Of a DNA stretch of 64,000 bases, positions 6,301 through 16,829 are shown piece by piece (positions within the stretch are counted from its first letter, which is position 1; the number at the start of each line of letters is the position of its first letter). This stretch comes from Bacteroidales bacterium. GTDB lineage: Bacteria > Bacteroidota > Bacteroidia > Bacteroidales > TTA-H9. The DNA is taken from NCBI GenBank assembly GCA_030656615.1, contig JAUSOY010000081.1:33896-97895 (forward strand), in the 5' to 3' direction. The notes below the pieces were generated by a model. That model was not told the origin of the DNA. It saw only the letters and a list, made by a program, of their open reading frames with translations, and did not search any database. The translations under genes were made by a program, and so were the position numbers.

Positions 6301-8962
6301 CTATGTAGATTGGGGCAGCGAATATGCACACATGTCTAAAGACCAGCCGGGAGGTGCTACTATGCTCAGTTTTACCTCCGACAAAAGCAATTATAATGTT
6401 GGCGAAAATGTAGTCCTTACCATTCCCACAGGAAACGAAGGACGAGCATTTATTAGCATAGAATCCGGATCAAGAATAATACAAACGCATTGGGTAAATG
6501 TGACCACAGGACAGACAAAATTTGAATTTAAAGCCACACAGGAAATGACTCCCAATGTGTATGTAAATGTAAGTCTCCTCCAGCCACATGCACAAACGCT
6601 GAACGATCTTCCCATACGGATGTATGGAATTATACCCCTTATGATAGAAGACCCGGCAACAAAGCTGCAGCCAATAATTACGATGAACGAAGTCCTGAGG
6701 CCCGAAGAAAAAACGAGTATCTCTGTTTCTGAGAAAAATGGTAAAGAAATGAGCTATACCATTGCCATTGTTGATGAAGGCCTGCTTGATTTAACACGTT
6801 TTAAAACACCGGATCCATGGAATAATTTTTATGCCCGTGAAGCACTTGGTGTTAAAACTTGGGATTTATATGATAATGTTATTGGCGCCTGGGCAGCACA
6901 ACTGGCACGAATGTTCAGCATTGGTGGCGATGATTATAAACGACCCAAAGACGATAAAAAAGCAAAACGTTTTAAACCGGTTGTAATTTCACTCGGGCCA
7001 TTTCATTTAGAAAAAGGACAAAAGAAAACACACAAATTTACTATTCCACAATATATTGGTTCCATACGGGCCATGGTGGTAGCCGGATATGAGGGAACAT
7101 ATGGTTCTGCCGAAAAAACTGTTCCCGTTCGTAAACCATTAATGTTGCTGGCAACTTTGCCCAGGGTGATTGGTCCGGGTGAAACTGTTAGTTTGCCTGT
7201 AAACATTTTCGCCATGGAAAAAAACATGCGTAATGTTACAGTTGAAGTTCAAGCGAATCCACTATTCAGCATTATTGGCGATAATAGCACTCAGGTTCAA
7301 TTTACAGAAGTGGGTGACAAGATGGTCAATTTCGAATTGAAAGCCAAATCATCACCCGGAATAGGAAAAGTTAAGATTGTTGCCAGAAGTGGGTCAGAAA
7401 AGGCCGAATATGAGGTAGAAATCGATGTTCGGAATCCAAATCCATACATCACCAACGTCATTGATACCATCATTGAAGCCGGACAGACTGTTTCATTGGG
7501 ATACATACCTGTTGGAATGACTGGTACAAATAAAGGCTTATTGGAAGTATCGTCATTTCCACCCATCAACCTTGGAAAACGAATCGATTATCTTGTTCAA
7601 TATCCATACGGATGTGTAGAACAAACGACATCTTCCGTGTTTCCGCAGCTCTTCCTATCGCAATTTATGGAACTTTCCACGGCTAGAAAATCAGAAACTG
7701 AGTATAATGTTAAGGCAGGCATATTGCGGCTTTCCACATTCCAAATACCCGATGGTGGCCTGGCATATTGGCCGGGTTCAAATCAATCCGATGAATGGTC
7801 GACCACTTACGCCGGGCATTTCATGATTGAAGCTCAAATGCTGGGTTATAATCTTCCTCCAGCCTTTATGGATCAATGGAAGAGATTTCAGAAAAAACAA
7901 GCTACCAATTGGAGTTTAAGTCCTTACGAACGATCAACCTTAGTACAGGCTTACCGTTTGTATACCCTTGCTCTTGCAAAAGCGCCTGAATTGGGAGCAA
8001 TGAATCGGCTAAAAGAGCAAACCGGACTTTCGGTTGAGTCGAGCTGGTGCCTGGCAGCAGCGTATCAATTGGCGGGTCAGCCCGAAGTAGCCAAAGCAAT
8101 TACTGCTAAAATTACTACAACGGTTAAAAAGTACACCGAATTAGGCACTTCCTACGGCTCAGACCTCCGCGACAAAGCAATGATATTGGATGCCTTGTCA
8201 TTAATGGGTGAGAAGAGTAAAGCAGCTCCTCTTATGAAAGAAATATCCGGACAACTGAGTAGTCCTGAATGGTTGAGTACTCAAACGACTGCATATTGCC
8301 TTGTAGCTCTTGCAAAATTCATCCATAAAAACAGTATTTCTGATAAGTTGAGTTTCACCAGTAAAATCAATAATGAGTCACTAAAAATAAACACATCCTC
8401 CCCTTTTTCACAAACCAATTTCACCATTAAAAACACGAATAAGGGACACATAGAAATTAAAAATACGGGTAAGGGGATGATATTTGCACGAATCCTCCTG
8501 ACCGGTCAGCCTGAAACGGGACAAAGTCAGGGCAGCGCCGAAAATAATTTAAAAATTGATGTCGTGTACCGATCAATGGACGGCAAAGAAATCAATGTAG
8601 AAAAACTACAGCAAGGCAGCGATTTTATGGCCGAAGTAACGGTTTTCAATCCGGGTATCCGTGGAAATTATGAACAAATGGCATTATCCCAGATTTTCCC
8701 TTCGGGATGGGAAATCCATAATTCCCGGTTATTTGGAAATGAAAATGGAATAAAATCATCTCCGGCAACCTATCAGGATATTCGAGATGACCGCGTTTAT
8801 ACGTATTTCAACATCAATAAAAACCAAAAACTTATGTATTATGTTCTGCTGAATGCAAGCTATACAGGACGGTTTTTCATGCCATCCACCCAATGCGAAG
8901 CCATGTACGATGCAAGCATTAATGCCCGGGTACCCGGGAAATGGGTAGAAGTGGTAAAATGA
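3398..8962 (+). CDS. Bacterial alpha-2-macroglobulin family protein (YfhM-like) with thioester motif
   Basis: 1854 aa; likely start at 3425 (MKNKKYFLGALGLVIILVAAYFVFG). Macroglobulin domains, YAERSVWRPGDTLHLMF, thioester motif GCVEQ, alpha-alpha barrel C-terminal part; adjacent to pbpC. Confidence 0.9.
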   Translation: MISALNLSKMKNKKYFLGALGLVIILVAAYFVFGKKQERIPFNPAFASYISAYTSGNISKESIICIRLANELSDEEMKKLGDTPLFRFSPSIKGRTIWRDGYTIEFLPDKSLKSGESYYGEFLLHKIMPTPKDLKVFPFDFQIIQQSFDVSIEGMKAFDKKTLEWQRLYGVIQTADVENPEDIHKIIHAKQNKKSLPIHWEFDGNRKNFRFTVDSIVRAEQASTVVLEWNGKAINVDLIGNKEINVPALGDFILTDNKVFYEPDQYLLLQFSDPLLENQNLDGLIRIGQISNLQFTIIDNEIRVYAPQRLIGTQDVFIDAGIQNILRYKLKEAIQFTATFEEIMPAVRLINTGVILPNTGNLAFPFEAANLKAVDVKVIKIFENNIKQFLQVNSLNGSDELRRVGSVVAKKTINLDGDKLLDLHKWNQFSLDLNDLIKNEPGAIYQISIGFKQEYSLYNCISTTGTTSNSDEDSDEDSYYEEEGYYSDDYNNYYYPRGYRWNQKDNPCHVSYYTGDRWIKQNVLASNLGLIAKKGSGDKMLFVVNDLKTTKPIGNATLEIYNYQNQLIAKGNTNSDGLAEISIKQIPYLLIASDGAQKAYLRLDDGSSLSLSKFDISGDIIQEGIKGFIYAERSVWRPGDTLHLMFMLEDKLKSIPAQHPVSLELYNPMGQLVKKMIRTESIQGIYNFRTYTSSEAPTGTWNVKIKIGGAFFQKSIRIETIMPNRLKINLDFGEGLYKDKNVNGTLQVLWLHGAAAKNLNAKIEATLTKTKTSFKKYPDYSFDDPTRAFEGETKTIFDNAIDENGKAKITAEFNTENAPGMLNAIFVTRIFEPGGSFSIDKMNVPYYPYNSFIGINIPSVEKSRQTLVTDKNYPVDIISVDQQGRLLPGTKTVEVQLYKIEWRWWWDRSDEDLTNYNTSAYHKPIKRELLTLNNGEGKYNLKINYPEWGRYLLRVCDNQGGHASAKSFYVDWGSEYAHMSKDQPGGATMLSFTSDKSNYNVGENVVLTIPTGNEGRAFISIESGSRIIQTHWVNVTTGQTKFEFKATQEMTPNVYVNVSLLQPHAQTLNDLPIRMYGIIPLMIEDPATKLQPIITMNEVLRPEEKTSISVSEKNGKEMSYTIAIVDEGLLDLTRFKTPDPWNNFYAREALGVKTWDLYDNVIGAWAAQLARMFSIGGDDYKRPKDDKKAKRFKPVVISLGPFHLEKGQKKTHKFTIPQYIGSIRAMVVAGYEGTYGSAEKTVPVRKPLMLLATLPRVIGPGETVSLPVNIFAMEKNMRNVTVEVQANPLFSIIGDNSTQVQFTEVGDKMVNFELKAKSSPGIGKVKIVARSGSEKAEYEVEIDVRNPNPYITNVIDTIIEAGQTVSLGYIPVGMTGTNKGLLEVSSFPPINLGKRIDYLVQYPYGCVEQTTSSVFPQLFLSQFMELSTARKSETEYNVKAGILRLSTFQIPDGGLAYWPGSNQSDEWSTTYAGHFMIEAQMLGYNLPPAFMDQWKRFQKKQATNWSLSPYERSTLVQAYRLYTLALAKAPELGAMNRLKEQTGLSVESSWCLAAAYQLAGQPEVAKAITAKITTTVKKYTELGTSYGSDLRDKAMILDALSLMGEKSKAAPLMKEISGQLSSPEWLSTQTTAYCLVALAKFIHKNSISDKLSFTSKINNESLKINTSSPFSQTNFTIKNTNKGHIEIKNTGKGMIFARILLTGQPETGQSQGSAENNLKIDVVYRSMDGKEINVEKLQQGSDFMAEVTVFNPGIRGNYEQMALSQIFPSGWEIHNSRLFGNENGIKSSPATYQDIRDDRVYTYFNINKNQKLMYYVLLNASYTGRFFMPSTQCEAMYDASINARVPGKWVEVVK

Positions 8963-11446: not shown

Positions 11447-11944
11447 CTACATTTTAAACTGCAAACTACCGTTTGGACACTCAACAACACATTTCAGGCA
11501 TTTTGAACAGGTATAACTATCGCCCGGCCTTTCCTTTTGAGATTTGTATAGACTATACTTAATGGGTTCCATTGAAACGATATAACAAGCTTTATCACAT
11601 ATTCCACAGGTCTTACAACTTTCCGTCTTTAATTGTATTCTGAATAGGGAAAACTTATTCAACCAGCCGGAAATCCATGCGATGGGACAGCCAATTTTGT
11701 GATATTGATACATCTGCCTCATCTTACCCGAACCACTTAAACTCATCATTATCTCCATTATCAGTCCCATAGGACAGCCCCACCGGCAAAAGACCTTTCC
11801 AAAAATAATCCCAAGAACCACTCCAATTAGCAATATATACCATAGCGAAACATTAAAATATGATACAGCCACATACGTCGATATCCCAATAATTGCAAGA
11901 ATTATGAAGCGTGAATGAACAAGGGTTTTTAGAGTTTTCTGCAT
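11447..11944 (-). CDS. NapH/polyferredoxin-like membrane 4Fe-4S protein
   Basis: TM segments, CRWGCP motif, two ferredoxin motifs CKTCGICDKAC and CSKCLKCVVECP. Confidence 0.8.
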   Translation of the reverse strand: MQKTLKTLVHSRFIILAIIGISTYVAVSYFNVSLWYILLIGVVLGIIFGKVFCRWGCPMGLIMEIMMSLSGSGKMRQMYQYHKIGCPIAWISGWLNKFSLFRIQLKTESCKTCGICDKACYIVSMEPIKYSLYKSQKERPGDSYTCSKCLKCVVECPNGSLQFKM

Positions 11945-12246: not shown

Positions 12247-12654
12247 TTAGAATGCACCAATGACCGATTGAACAATCTCAAAAGTTTCGTCAGATGCGAT
12301 TTGCATAACTTCAGCAACCGAGGAAGGCATTCCTTCTTTCATAGCCGCTGTATTCATCAGGGCAACGTATGCTTTTCCATCCTCTTTTTCATACACCGAA
12401 ATGCGGCAAGGCATCATAATGGAAACAATTCTTTCGTGATTCTTTTCAAGCATTTTCCCTGAAAATTCAGGTTTACAAATCTCGATTACCTGAACCGGAC
12501 GCACTTCTTTGCCCGACTTTGCCAAGGATTGTTGTAAATTGTGTACGGCAGGATTCTGCCACTCTTTTTGATTTGCAGCACTCAACAGCTTTTCAATGGT
12601 TGTGGGCACGTCAAATGGGCTTACTTGTTCGATGATTAAATTATTTGTACTCAT
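12247..12654 (-). CDS. DUF302 domain protein
   Basis: ICKPEFSGKMLEKNHERIVSIMMPCRISVYEKEDGKAYVALMN matches the DUF302 pattern. Confidence 0.8.
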   Translation of the reverse strand: MSTNNLIIEQVSPFDVPTTIEKLLSAANQKEWQNPAVHNLQQSLAKSGKEVRPVQVIEICKPEFSGKMLEKNHERIVSIMMPCRISVYEKEDGKAYVALMNTAAMKEGMPSSVAEVMQIASDETFEIVQSVIGAF

Positions 12655-12673: not shown

Positions 12674-13942
12674 TTAACTTAATTCTTTAACAATAGATAT
12701 AGCTGCAATGGTTCCATCAGCAACTGCAGTAGTTATCTGACGGTATTTTTTAGAAATTACATCGCCTACGGCATAAATATCGGACATACTTGTCAGCATA
12801 TCCTCATTGGTATTAACATAACCCCAGCTATCAAGTTCAAGCTTATCTCTAAACATATCAATATTGGGTTTCATTCCAATAAAAACGAATACGCCATCAC
12901 TTACCAACTTTGATCGTTCATGGGTTTTCAAATCTTCTACTTCGGTAATAATTTTATCTCCCTCGCGTACAAAAGACCTTGGTTCGAACCCGAATTTTGT
13001 TTGAATTTTTGGATTGGCAAAAAGCTTTTCCTGAGCCTGCTTATTAGCAGTAAAAGAGTCAAACTGGTGAACGACTGTAATTTTACTGGCAAACTTGCTA
13101 ATAAAATCAGCTTCTTCTATTGCTGAATTTCCACCCCCTATGACTAGAACTTCCTTATCGTCATAATACTTAGCATCGCAAGTTGCACAATATGAAATAC
13201 CCTTGCCTTTCAATTCCTTTTCACCGGGTATTCCCATCAAATTTGGAGATGTACCGGTAGCGATGATGATTTTTTTTGCTCTTATAGTTTCGAATTCATC
13301 AATCACGACCTCTTTTTTATTCAAGTCGATTTTTGTAACATCCACTGCCACTTTATAACTGGTTCCACATAATTTCGTTTGTTCCGACATATTGTGCGAT
13401 AACAAATATCCTGGTTGGGGATCGATAAATCCTGGATAATTTGAAACTTCGTGTGTTGTTGAAACATGCCCCCCTGGCAAAGCGATATCAATAAGTACCG
13501 TGTTCACTTTCGACTGGCAAAGGTATAAACCGGCAGTAAGACCACCCGGACCTGCTCCCAAAATAAGAACATCAAACTCAGAGACAGCAGGTTTTATTTG
13601 CGACTTTATTGCCTCCACCCTATCGTGGGTCAACATGTTATTGAGCTCATGGATAATTTCACTTCTTTTTATTCCACCACTGAGCATATTTCCAATCTGC
13701 TTTCCATCTTCAAAAAATAATAAGCTTGGAGAGGATTTTACCCCCAATTTTTCCGCTAACTCACGGTTTGCCTGACGATACATTTTTACAAAACGTATAT
13801 CATTACCATAAAGCTGTGCCAATCCCTCAAACTTTGGCGCCAGAGCGTCGCAGGGCGGACATTCGGTGGAATAAAAATCGAGGACTAGTTTCCCTCCGGC
13901 ATTAATCTCTAGTTCGAACTCGGAGGATGATATTTCTTTCAT
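12674..13942 (-). CDS. Thioredoxin-thioredoxin reductase fusion (N-terminal Trx, C-terminal TrxB-like flavoprotein)
   Basis: N-terminal Trx fold with CPPC (YSTECPPCDALAPKFEGL); then GAGPGGLTAGLYLCQSKVNTVLID, active-site CATCDAKYY, GGGNSAIEEADFISKFASKITVVHQ, YAVGDV. Confidence 0.9.
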   Translation of the reverse strand: MKEISSSEFELEINAGGKLVLDFYSTECPPCDALAPKFEGLAQLYGNDIRFVKMYRQANRELAEKLGVKSSPSLLFFEDGKQIGNMLSGGIKRSEIIHELNNMLTHDRVEAIKSQIKPAVSEFDVLILGAGPGGLTAGLYLCQSKVNTVLIDIALPGGHVSTTHEVSNYPGFIDPQPGYLLSHNMSEQTKLCGTSYKVAVDVTKIDLNKKEVVIDEFETIRAKKIIIATGTSPNLMGIPGEKELKGKGISYCATCDAKYYDDKEVLVIGGGNSAIEEADFISKFASKITVVHQFDSFTANKQAQEKLFANPKIQTKFGFEPRSFVREGDKIITEVEDLKTHERSKLVSDGVFVFIGMKPNIDMFRDKLELDSWGYVNTNEDMLTSMSDIYAVGDVISKKYRQITTAVADGTIAAISIVKELS

Positions 13943-14010: not shown

Positions 14011-15351
14011 TTAAACCGATTGTGTATTTTCGAAATAAGCCGAAAATCCAAGTTCCAGTAATTCTTTCACCGGACGGCAATCGGTTGAGTACACTTTTCC
14101 TGTTCTGTTTTTCGCTACCGAACCACAACCGCCACCACAGGCCAATTGCAGGTTACAGTTGCCACATTCCGGAATTGAAGTAACATCACGACTTTCCCAA
14201 ATTTCTATCAGTTCATTTTTGCGTGATACCTCCGGATAAAAAGTACCCAGAGATTCATCAGCCTTACCAACCGTGGCCGTGCACGAAAAAATATGTCCGC
14301 TATAATCGAATGCCCATTCCGTTTTACATGCCGGACATGCATCAAATAAAGGATCGGGTAAACTTCCATTTTCTGCCAGGAATTTCGAAATTGAATAAGC
14401 TGGCTTATGGAAATCAACAATATACAGATGTTGCTTTACAAGTTTGTATATTGAATCGTACAATGAAATACGGCTAAAAAGATTTTCAGAATCCGCCTGG
14501 CAATGATGTAACTCATAATTTCTTCCCAGCTGGGTTTTGAATAATTTGTTTTCTGTCCAGCCTTTATCAATGGCGAATTGTGCCAATTCGGGAAGTCCGT
14601 TAATGTTTTCTTTATCAAGCACCATCCGTAAATTTACCGGCAAGTCGTTATCAAGACAAGCATCAATCCCTTTGACAATTTTTTCAAACGTAGGTCCTCC
14701 TCCTTTCAAAAAACGGCGTTTATCATGCACAGAGCCTAAACCATCCAGAGTAACCTGAATCTCACGGATACGGGCCATTTTTAAAATATCGATATACTCA
14801 ACGAGTGCATAACCATTGGTAACGAAACAAACCTCAAGATTAATCCCATTTGCTTTTGATATGAGATACGAAATCATTTCCTTTTGACGGGTCGAATTCA
14901 TTAATGGCTCACCACCAAATACTGTCAGATATTTTTTTTGTCCGGCAAATTCTGAATTTATATAGTTGAAGAATGCATTAATAACTTCATGACTCAGTTC
15001 CTTGTCAGTATTCGCATATTCATCCTGATAACAATACGTACAGGCGAAATTGCAAGAATAATTCGGCACAAAAAATAATTGCACCTCATCTTCCTCACGG
15101 CTATCGATAAAATCGAGGTATTTACTTCGGTAAAGACGTTCTTCCTCCTTTTCATCAACCAAATAACCCATAGTGGCCAGATTTTCATGAAATTCCGGAG
15201 AAAGTGCTTTACCATCTAAAAATGCCTGAAGGTTTTTTCCTTCCACGGGATTTAATATATCAGCAGATCCACTCAGCAGATTTACCAGAAAATAATTATC
15301 TGATTCGGAAATTTTGGAGAATATGTTGTGTTTTGAATAATTCATTAACAC
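14011..15351 (-). CDS. Radical SAM/SPASM domain enzyme (putative peptide maturase)
   Basis: CNFACTYCYQ (CxxxCxxC), TVFGGEPLMN, VTNGYAL, C-terminal SPASM-type cysteines CPAC...CTATVG...CGNCNLQLACGGGCGS. Confidence 0.9.
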   Translation of the reverse strand: MLMNYSKHNIFSKISESDNYFLVNLLSGSADILNPVEGKNLQAFLDGKALSPEFHENLATMGYLVDEKEEERLYRSKYLDFIDSREEDEVQLFFVPNYSCNFACTYCYQDEYANTDKELSHEVINAFFNYINSEFAGQKKYLTVFGGEPLMNSTRQKEMISYLISKANGINLEVCFVTNGYALVEYIDILKMARIREIQVTLDGLGSVHDKRRFLKGGGPTFEKIVKGIDACLDNDLPVNLRMVLDKENINGLPELAQFAIDKGWTENKLFKTQLGRNYELHHCQADSENLFSRISLYDSIYKLVKQHLYIVDFHKPAYSISKFLAENGSLPDPLFDACPACKTEWAFDYSGHIFSCTATVGKADESLGTFYPEVSRKNELIEIWESRDVTSIPECGNCNLQLACGGGCGSVAKNRTGKVYSTDCRPVKELLELGFSAYFENTQSV

Positions 15352-15420
15352 ATGGTTATTTATAGCTATTTGTAGCGAAAATGTTAGAAAAAAAGATTTT
15401 CAAACGTTTGAAATTCCTGA

Positions 15421-15522
15421 TTAATCGTGACAGCCTACGATGGTTTTTGATGTCTTAGCACAGCATTGCGCCACTTTCTTCGTATTCACTTCCTTTATTT
15501 TCTTTTTAACAAGACTTTTCAT
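15421..15522 (-). CDS. Putative Cys-containing RiPP-like precursor peptide, 33 aa
   Basis: Not in ORF track (too short). Translated by hand: MKSLVKKKIKEVNTKKVAQCCAKTSKTIVGCHD*. Lys-rich N-terminal half, CC...C C-terminal half, immediately upstream (69 nt) of the rSAM/SPASM gene on the same strand. Confidence 0.65.
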   Translation of the reverse strand: MKSLVKKKIKEVNTKKVAQCCAKTSKTIVGCHD

Positions 15523-15610: not shown

Positions 15611-16258
15611 TTAATGACCACACGAACAAGCGGCAGATTTTTTCCCGGCAATGGTAATACTGGCTACCTCCGCGTTTCCTTTTGCGTAGGGGCCCGATTC
15701 TTCAATAATTTCGATCGAGACAAAACCAGCATTTTTTAGATGTTCCATATATTCGGCACGGGTCACGGAACCAGCCCAGCACTCAGCAATGGCAATCGGA
15801 TTATTGCGGTCTTCTTCTGAAATTAGATGCGTGGCATAAATATCACTAATTACGAAACGACCTCCTTTTTTCAGAATTCTATAAATTTCATTCCAGACAG
15901 CCTGTTTATCGGAAGCATGATTGAGTGTGCAATTCGAAATCACTAAATCAGCCAATTCATCGGCAAGATCAAGTTTTTCGAGTTGGCATTGTATAAACCG
16001 GACATGATTTACTTTAAATTTCTCCGCATTACGGCGGGCTTTTTCAATCATTCCATCCGAAATATCGACACCATAGACAAAGCCTTCTACGCCGACCTTT
16101 TCTGCCATACGTAATACATCTGTTCCACGGCCGCTGCCAAGATCAACACATACTTCACCACTTAATGGTTTTGCATAATCAATTGCACCGCCACAAGAAA
16201 GGCAGCAATCCGATTCAGCCAACTGGCTGTATCTGGTATTTATTTCTTTGATTTCCAT
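15611..16258 (-). CDS. Class I SAM-dependent methyltransferase, ArsM (arsenite methyltransferase)-like
   Basis: VDLGSGRGTDVLRMA SAM-binding motif; three Cys contexts LSCGG, ISNCTLNHASDK and AECWAGSVTRAEYMEHLKNAGF resemble the ArsM cysteines; extra Cys at both termini. Confidence 0.75.
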   Translation of the reverse strand: MEIKEINTRYSQLAESDCCLSCGGAIDYAKPLSGEVCVDLGSGRGTDVLRMAEKVGVEGFVYGVDISDGMIEKARRNAEKFKVNHVRFIQCQLEKLDLADELADLVISNCTLNHASDKQAVWNEIYRILKKGGRFVISDIYATHLISEEDRNNPIAIAECWAGSVTRAEYMEHLKNAGFVSIEIIEESGPYAKGNAEVASITIAGKKSAACSCGH

Positions 16259-16400: not shown

Positions 16401-16829
16401 TCAGGACATTTTCTCCACTTTACTAATCTCAGAAAGGAGAAAATCCTTTGACTTAACACCAACAAAACGATTCACTGCTTTACCGTTTTTAAAGAGTATT
16501 AATGTAGGAATACTTCTTACCTTAAATTTTTGAGCCAGCGATTGGTATAATTCAATATCCACTTTTCCCACCCGCGATTTGTCGCTTAATTCAGCGGATA
16601 CATCATTTAATACGGGTATCATCATCCGGCACGGAGCACACCAACTGGCCCAAAAATCAACCAAAACGATCCTGTTCTTGGTTTGCTGGTCAAAATTTTT
16701 GTCGGTGAGCGTTAGAATACTTTCATGGTCTGCAGCCAGAGACGTACTTTTCATTTTAGCTTTCATCAGCATTCTGAAAACAATAAAAACCGTAAGAACT
16801 GAGGCTAATACTATCAGGGTTGTATTCAT
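16401..16829 (-). CDS. Membrane-anchored thioredoxin
   Basis: N-terminal TM/signal followed by VDFWASWCAPCRMMIPVL and IPTLILFKNGKAVNRFVG. Confidence 0.92.
   Translation of the reverse strand: MNTTLIVLASVLTVFIVFRMLMKAKMKSTSLAADHESILTLTDKNFDQQTKNRIVLVDFWASWCAPCRMMIPVLNDVSAELSDKSRVGKVDIELYQSLAQKFKVRSIPTLILFKNGKAVNRFVGVKSKDFLLSEISKVEKMS

Follow-up and report, generated by a model that had tools for sequence, protein, structure and literature searches.

The window, i.e., the whole 64,000-nucleotide stretch of a Bacteroidales genome that has been analysed here, carries on its minus strand a group of genes in which a short reading frame missed by annotation lies between a putative methyltransferase and a radical SAM (rSAM)/SPASM enzyme. 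The features of this group are as follows:

11447..11944, minus strand: NapH-like membrane 4Fe-4S protein, 165 aa, an occasional neighbour (10 loci)
12247..12654, minus strand: DUF302 protein, 135 aa, a frequent downstream neighbour (41 loci)
12674..13942, minus strand: thioredoxin-thioredoxin reductase (Trx-TrxR) fusion, 422 aa, with CPPC and CATC motifs
14011..15345, minus strand: predicted radical SAM/SPASM peptide maturase with an N-terminal RRE-like segment, from a Radical_SAM match, the signature and a CteB fold
15388..15413, minus strand: stem-loop TTTCAAACGTTTGAAA followed by a T7 run, terminator-like, between the peptide and rSAM genes
15421..15522, minus strand: gene of the very probable precursor peptide, 33 aa, with a conserved frame, invariant core residues and purifying selection
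15611..16258, minus strand: ArsM-like SAM-dependent methyltransferase, 215 aa, with C22/C110/C160 aligned to C72/C174/C224 of CmArsM
16401..16829, minus strand: thioredoxin with an N-terminal hydrophobic segment, 142 aa, an upstream neighbour whose membership of the system is uncertain

A first-pass annotation of this DNA had pointed to a complete ATG-to-TAA frame of 33 aa in the gap between the methyltransferase and rSAM genes and on the same strand, and this has been borne out. Read on the minus strand from 15522 to 15421, the frame translates to MKSLVKKKIKEVNTKKVAQCCAKTSKTIVGCHD, which consists of a leader-like part, MKSLVKKKIKEVNTKKV, and a core, AQCCAKTSKTIVGCHD, before the stop codon TAA; it is located 88 nt past the methyltransferase stop (15611) and 75 nt ahead of the rSAM ATG (15345). 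As many ATG frames of similarly small size occur in the window by chance, the ORF alone proves nothing, and conservation has to be regarded as the test. Among 80 loci collected with the rSAM protein as the sole query, 73 have been found to contain an intact peptide homologue, nearly always immediately upstream of the rSAM gene. Two loci (L057, L077) retain a peptide fragment cut at the contig start, and three (L053, L059, L065) start at or inside the rSAM gene. The remaining two (L045, L047) are complete and have no local peptide; rSAM and Trx-TrxR are present, and in both genomes the peptide gene is found at another site, directly following that of the methyltransferase.

Across 68 distinct peptides, ten of the final 16 positions have been computed to be invariant (A18, C20, C21, A22, K23, S25, G30, C31, H32 and D33), and Q19 is shared by 67. 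The conservation of the CC-x9-C cysteines C20, C21 and C31, proposed earlier as a check, is thereby confirmed. Third codon positions vary freely and synonymous codons are used without constraint, with a pairwise pN/pS of 0.10 over the last 16 codons and of 0.002 over the invariant ones; since pS is saturated (about 0.8-0.9), these values are counts and not a fitted omega. The outcome named beforehand as refuting, i.e., non-conservation or a Ka/Ks near 1, has been looked for and has not been met. When Spirochaetota sequences are added, position 22 is occupied by A, S or T and position 25, mostly Ser, by S or T, and the other invariant positions hold across 54 distinct core sequences, Spirochaetota included. 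Conservation extends to the N-terminus as well, in the form MK(S/N/T)L(V/I)KKK or, more broadly, MK(S/N/T)(L/V)(I/V)(K/R)KK, a point on which the first-pass annotation has to be corrected; the middle varies in sequence and length, giving whole peptides of 31-39 aa. The peptide thus combines a Lys-rich, leader-like N-terminus with a core containing three cysteines; the Thr at position 24 is not conserved, which is a further small correction. Judged from these sequence comparisons, the 33-aa frame is a real, strongly selected gene, the product of which ends in AQCC-K-S-GCHD almost unchanged over at least two bacterial phyla.

The peptide, the rSAM enzyme and the methyltransferase have been observed in the same 6 of 399 Bacteroidota genomes, with peptide matches counted at E < 1e-10. 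The rSAM scores in these six range from 656 to 816 bits (next 228) and those of the methyltransferase from 350 to 397 bits (next 172). The chance of a 6/6 agreement among 399 genomes amounts to 1.9e-13 under the assumption of independent genomes, which they are not, as shared ancestry is ignored. Weak peptide matches in three Bacteroidota genomes (E > 0.002), where no rSAM is found, have been taken as chance. The next-best rSAMs (228 bits and below) have been placed outside the family because quite different Cys peptides occur nearby; for the next-nearest ones (L132 in G389, L133 in G051, and L136), the peptides differ in type, have an acidic leader (...SVDDLEERLEFAEWCEFCDPIFCAPV...) and may constitute a further uncatalogued family.

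Within a set of 61 relatives, all seven genomes with a true rSAM have the peptide adjoining it. One further relative, G442, encodes an intact peptide (L112, about 8240-8340, minus strand) and no rSAM has been found in this genome, which is 99% complete; this counts against the RiPP reading. The neighbourhood of this orphan comprises a different methyltransferase, a Fur-like regulator, a peroxiredoxin and additional genes that we have read from their sequences as TusA/Hdr-like, and it may reflect a recent loss, an assembly gap or another function. For Spirochaetota, the phylum of locus L075 (a Spirochaetaceae record), 298 genomes have been sampled with the rSAM counted at E <= 1e-60, yielding the peptide in 30 and the rSAM in 34. 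In the peptide-only genomes (G653, G688) the rSAM is cut by a contig end. Six genomes have yielded the rSAM only; in five of them a variant peptide that falls below the search threshold directly precedes the rSAM (e.g., MKSITKVNIHQNQSCCGTANNTVAQCCSKNTKLVAGCHD, which begins at the methyltransferase stop), and in the sixth (G529) the rSAM match is limited to residues 205-436 and looks truncated by the contig. Since unlinked, variant or contig-cut cases account for the exceptions, none of the complete loci examined has the rSAM in a genome without the peptide. Some variant Spirochaetota peptides carry a second, N-terminal CC (e.g., MKSVTKVNIKKNQVCCSTADSSVAQCCSKNTKIVAGCHD; L166:3983, L167:3907, L168:666, L169:4047, L170:3225, reverse-complemented), and their start abuts or overlaps the methyltransferase stop.

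The linkage is not absolute. The peptide has been retained beside the methyltransferase and unlinked from the rSAM in G459 and G460, and in G478 some 2 kb separate it from the rSAM, which is encoded on the other strand. The retention of the peptide next to the methyltransferase when unlinked from the rSAM shows that these two form a pair of their own. A second peptide copy in G461 (L127:5018, KTSST core) lies beside an SQR-like gene, DUF1847 and DUF302 with no adjacent rSAM, and its position counts against the RiPP reading.

The rSAM enzyme comprises 444 aa from the ATG at 15345 or 446 aa from a GTG at 15351. The CX3CX2C motif together with the SPASM pattern CX9-15GX4C...CX2CX5CX3C...C has been computed in 80 of 81 rSAM sequences, which meets the signature criterion for rSAM-RiPP enzymes. 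Its scores remain below every NCBIfam cut-off: the best, both near full length, are those to TIGR04463 (146 bits, cut-off 525, so that membership of this family is not met) and to CefB NF038107 (142 bits, cut-off 600), and the SCIFF maturase model TIGR03974 reaches 73.5 bits (cut-off 425). For the AlphaFold model (mean pLDDT 75.5, with low-confidence parts in the SPASM region), the best PDB fold match is CteB 5why (E 2.5e-18, TM 0.64), with 5wgg matched too, followed by anSME, SuiB and ChlB; in a sequence-profile search of the PDB, CteB has been the only match. Residues 6-57 of the model form three strands and then helices, an arrangement like that of RRE domains, and CteB, the best full-length fold match, has an RRE, while no PqqD/RRE profile has matched. 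As far as a predicted model permits, the enzyme is of the peptide-maturase type with a CteB-like fold.

Scans of the peptide and 46 homologues against NCBIfam and Pfam have returned nothing credible; a lachnocin match (E 0.1, one member) and a BTK motif (0.03) have been rejected. The peptide matches no NCBIfam precursor model, a PDB profile search with it has given no match, and a literature search on the peptide motif, TIGR04463, DUF6132 and rSAM RiPPs with arsenic has found nothing relevant. The predicted model of the peptide has no structure, as would be expected for a precursor, but this is uninformative as fold evidence. The general expectation for rSAM-modified RiPPs, namely genetic linkage between a short precursor and an rSAM that modifies peptides, is fulfilled. 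Consequently, the earlier proposal of a putative RiPP precursor is supported by the linkage to an rSAM/SPASM gene, the strict core under purifying selection, the CteB-like rSAM and the absence of a known precursor family, and we regard it as very probable that the peptide is a RiPP precursor, even if no modified product of it is known, which counts against this reading. That it represents an uncatalogued family of rSAM-modified peptides with the adjacent rSAM as its maturase is likely, the modification itself being inferred. In the broad sense this is a new RiPP family, outside SCIFF, TIGR04463 and any named precursor family tested.

In 62 loci the methyltransferase precedes the peptide at a distance of no more than 700 nt, with a median gap of 66 nt. 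In CmArsM, C72/C174/C224 constitute the As(III)-binding site (PMC3877260). The corresponding C22/C110/C160 are invariant in a 28-member alignment (A5), and the criterion of three As(III) cysteines for ArsM is met; with distant methyltransferases included the triad is kept in 27 of 28, the exception being a paralogue that does not adjoin a peptide. The score against NCBIfam PRK11873 (181 bits) is under the cut-off of 263, and no ars resistance genes are frequent near the peptide loci, which counts against the preferred reading. On the sequence evidence, the intact As(III) triad keeps open the earlier idea of a three-thiolate metalloid site in the peptide, as an alternative to thioether crosslinks, and does not show it. 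The source genome encodes a second, more canonical ArsM-like methyltransferase (G000:C72:20016-20537, 158.7 bits).

Downstream, the Trx-TrxR fusion follows the rSAM in most loci, and 66 of 74 such fusions have both CxxC motifs. Other frequent neighbours are a DUF6132-like small membrane protein, SQR-like flavoproteins, DUF1847, TauE/SafE, sulfur transport and Cys/Met enzymes, so the neighbourhood has a thiol and sulfur theme and is not an ars operon. The DUF6132-like protein, located upstream of the methyltransferase, displays a conserved GC(A/S)SGSC motif (L002:3409-3648 and 38 other loci). The 70 nt past the peptide fold with z < -3 relative to shuffled sequence in 22 of 74 loci, as compared to 2 of 74 for the upstream side, and it may reasonably be inferred that a partial terminator here favours the precursor over the enzyme in amount. 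No conserved protease has emerged from the survey of neighbours, and no C39 peptidase, PCAT or exporter stands out; leader removal is thus left unexplained. A scan with a defence library has returned only generic viperin and mad2 domain-level matches.

The same maturation could serve a different role, that of a secreted sactipeptide/ranthipeptide-like RiPP acting as a bacteriocin or as a signal. The rSAM/SPASM maturase fold would suit this, and SCIFF-derived ranthipeptides have been reported in quorum sensing, as far as a title in the reference list of PMC8326336 indicates. Bacteriocins, however, do not share a core nearly invariant across phyla, and unlike the Bacteroidales PCAT clusters (PMC10352776) these loci have neither a GG motif nor a PCAT, protease or exporter standing out nearby, which renders secretion unlikely. 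Because the core is near-constant across phyla and export genes are not conserved, an intracellular, cofactor-like or metal(loid)/sulfur role is likelier than that of a bacteriocin.

One may also postulate that the peptide remains unmodified and binds metal or metalloid, either like a metallothionein or as a metallochaperone for the ArsM-like methyltransferase, with the rSAM acting elsewhere. Three invariant cysteines plus His and Asp would provide ligands, the methyltransferase with its CmArsM-type triad is nearly always adjacent, two genomes link the peptide to the methyltransferase and not to the rSAM, and G442 keeps the peptide without an rSAM. Against this stand the near-perfect genome-level co-occurrence with one rSAM clade in two phyla, the peptide-maturase type of that rSAM, and a conserved Lys-rich N-terminus that lacks metal ligands and looks like a leader, and we therefore consider such a peptide improbable. 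A cis-acting leader, i.e., a Cys-rich uORF controlling rSAM translation or transcription, is hardly tenable: the short ORF does immediately precede the rSAM, and in many loci a stem-loop follows it, but a cis leader should always be directly upstream of the gene it regulates, and the retention of the peptide where unlinked (G459, G460) or on the opposite strand (G478) argues strongly against this; moreover, the spacing to the rSAM varies widely, and at both ends of the peptide (N-terminal MKSL, C-terminal GCHD) it is the protein sequence that is conserved while synonymous change is free.

For the preferred reading, an rSAM-modified precursor, we infer that the Lys-rich N-terminus would serve as a leader to which the neighbouring rSAM/SPASM enzyme binds through its RRE-like N-terminal segment, and that this enzyme would then modify the core AQCCAKxSxxxxGCHD. 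The most likely modification would resemble the maturation of CteB-type ranthipeptides, with a thioether joining C20 or C21 to a residue close by, for example S/T25, and D33 may be another invariant candidate acceptor. As Ser has no C-gamma, the type of link known from CteA cannot form at Ser25, and any crosslink there would be at C-alpha or C-beta. The family probably works in a CteB-like mode, with thioether chemistry in particular being inferred at roughly even odds. The ArsM-like methyltransferase, as the constant partner, might methylate the peptide or use it as a thiol ligand or carrier for metalloid or sulfur species, and the Trx-TrxR fusion could keep the cysteines of the peptide or of the enzyme reduced. 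A redox or metalloid role together with the methyltransferase is inferred only tentatively. Rather doubtful as a whole is the most specific version, in which the mature peptide is an rSAM-crosslinked intracellular cofactor or carrier, presents a metalloid or a reactive sulfur species to an ArsM-like methyltransferase dedicated to this task, and is recycled by a dedicated thioredoxin system. If true, methyl transfer to metalloid or sulfur would here depend on a peptide cofactor. The annotation-missed precursor, tied to an arsenic-type methyltransferase and a thioredoxin system, would join a small group of RiPPs with a core conserved like that of a cofactor and not of a bacteriocin, and ArsM-like enzymes outside ars operons would gain a defined context. 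As three or four genes define the system, it is directly testable by co-expression.

Among the known systems, TIGR04463 (rSAM_vs_C_rich) and CefB (NF038107) are the top NCBIfam models for the rSAM, yet their cut-offs are far from being reached. The Bacteroidales GG/PCAT rSAM RiPP clusters (PMC10352776) come from the same bacterial order as the loci nearest to that of the window and also have an rSAM with an RRE-like segment and a short precursor, whereas the loci described here have no GG motif and no PCAT, come mostly from environmental genomes and possess an invariant core. The methyltransferase keeps the Cys triad of ArsM (CmArsM; PRK11873) but belongs to a separate clade (350-397 bits as compared to at most 172 bits for other ArsM-like proteins), lies outside ars operons and is accompanied by adjacent RiPP genes. 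SCIFF membership, as defined by six cysteines in about 45 residues and a TIGR03974 maturase, is not met by three core cysteines in 33 aa and the low maturase score, in agreement with the initial view that the peptide is not SCIFF-like. A parallel in organisation is that of CteA-CteB (and Tte1186a) of the SCIFF/ranthipeptide type, in which an RRE-rSAM-SPASM maturase adjoins a short, broadly conserved Cys-rich peptide, as the rSAM/SPASM enzyme with its RRE-like segment does here. CteB was reported to link Cys32 of CteA to Thr37 or Thr34 by a Cys-Thr thioether (PMC8326336), and C20 and S25 of the present peptide are likewise a Cys and a Ser/Thr residue five positions apart; unlike CteA-CteB, the present system occurs in different phyla and is combined with a constant ArsM-like methyltransferase and a Trx-TrxR fusion.
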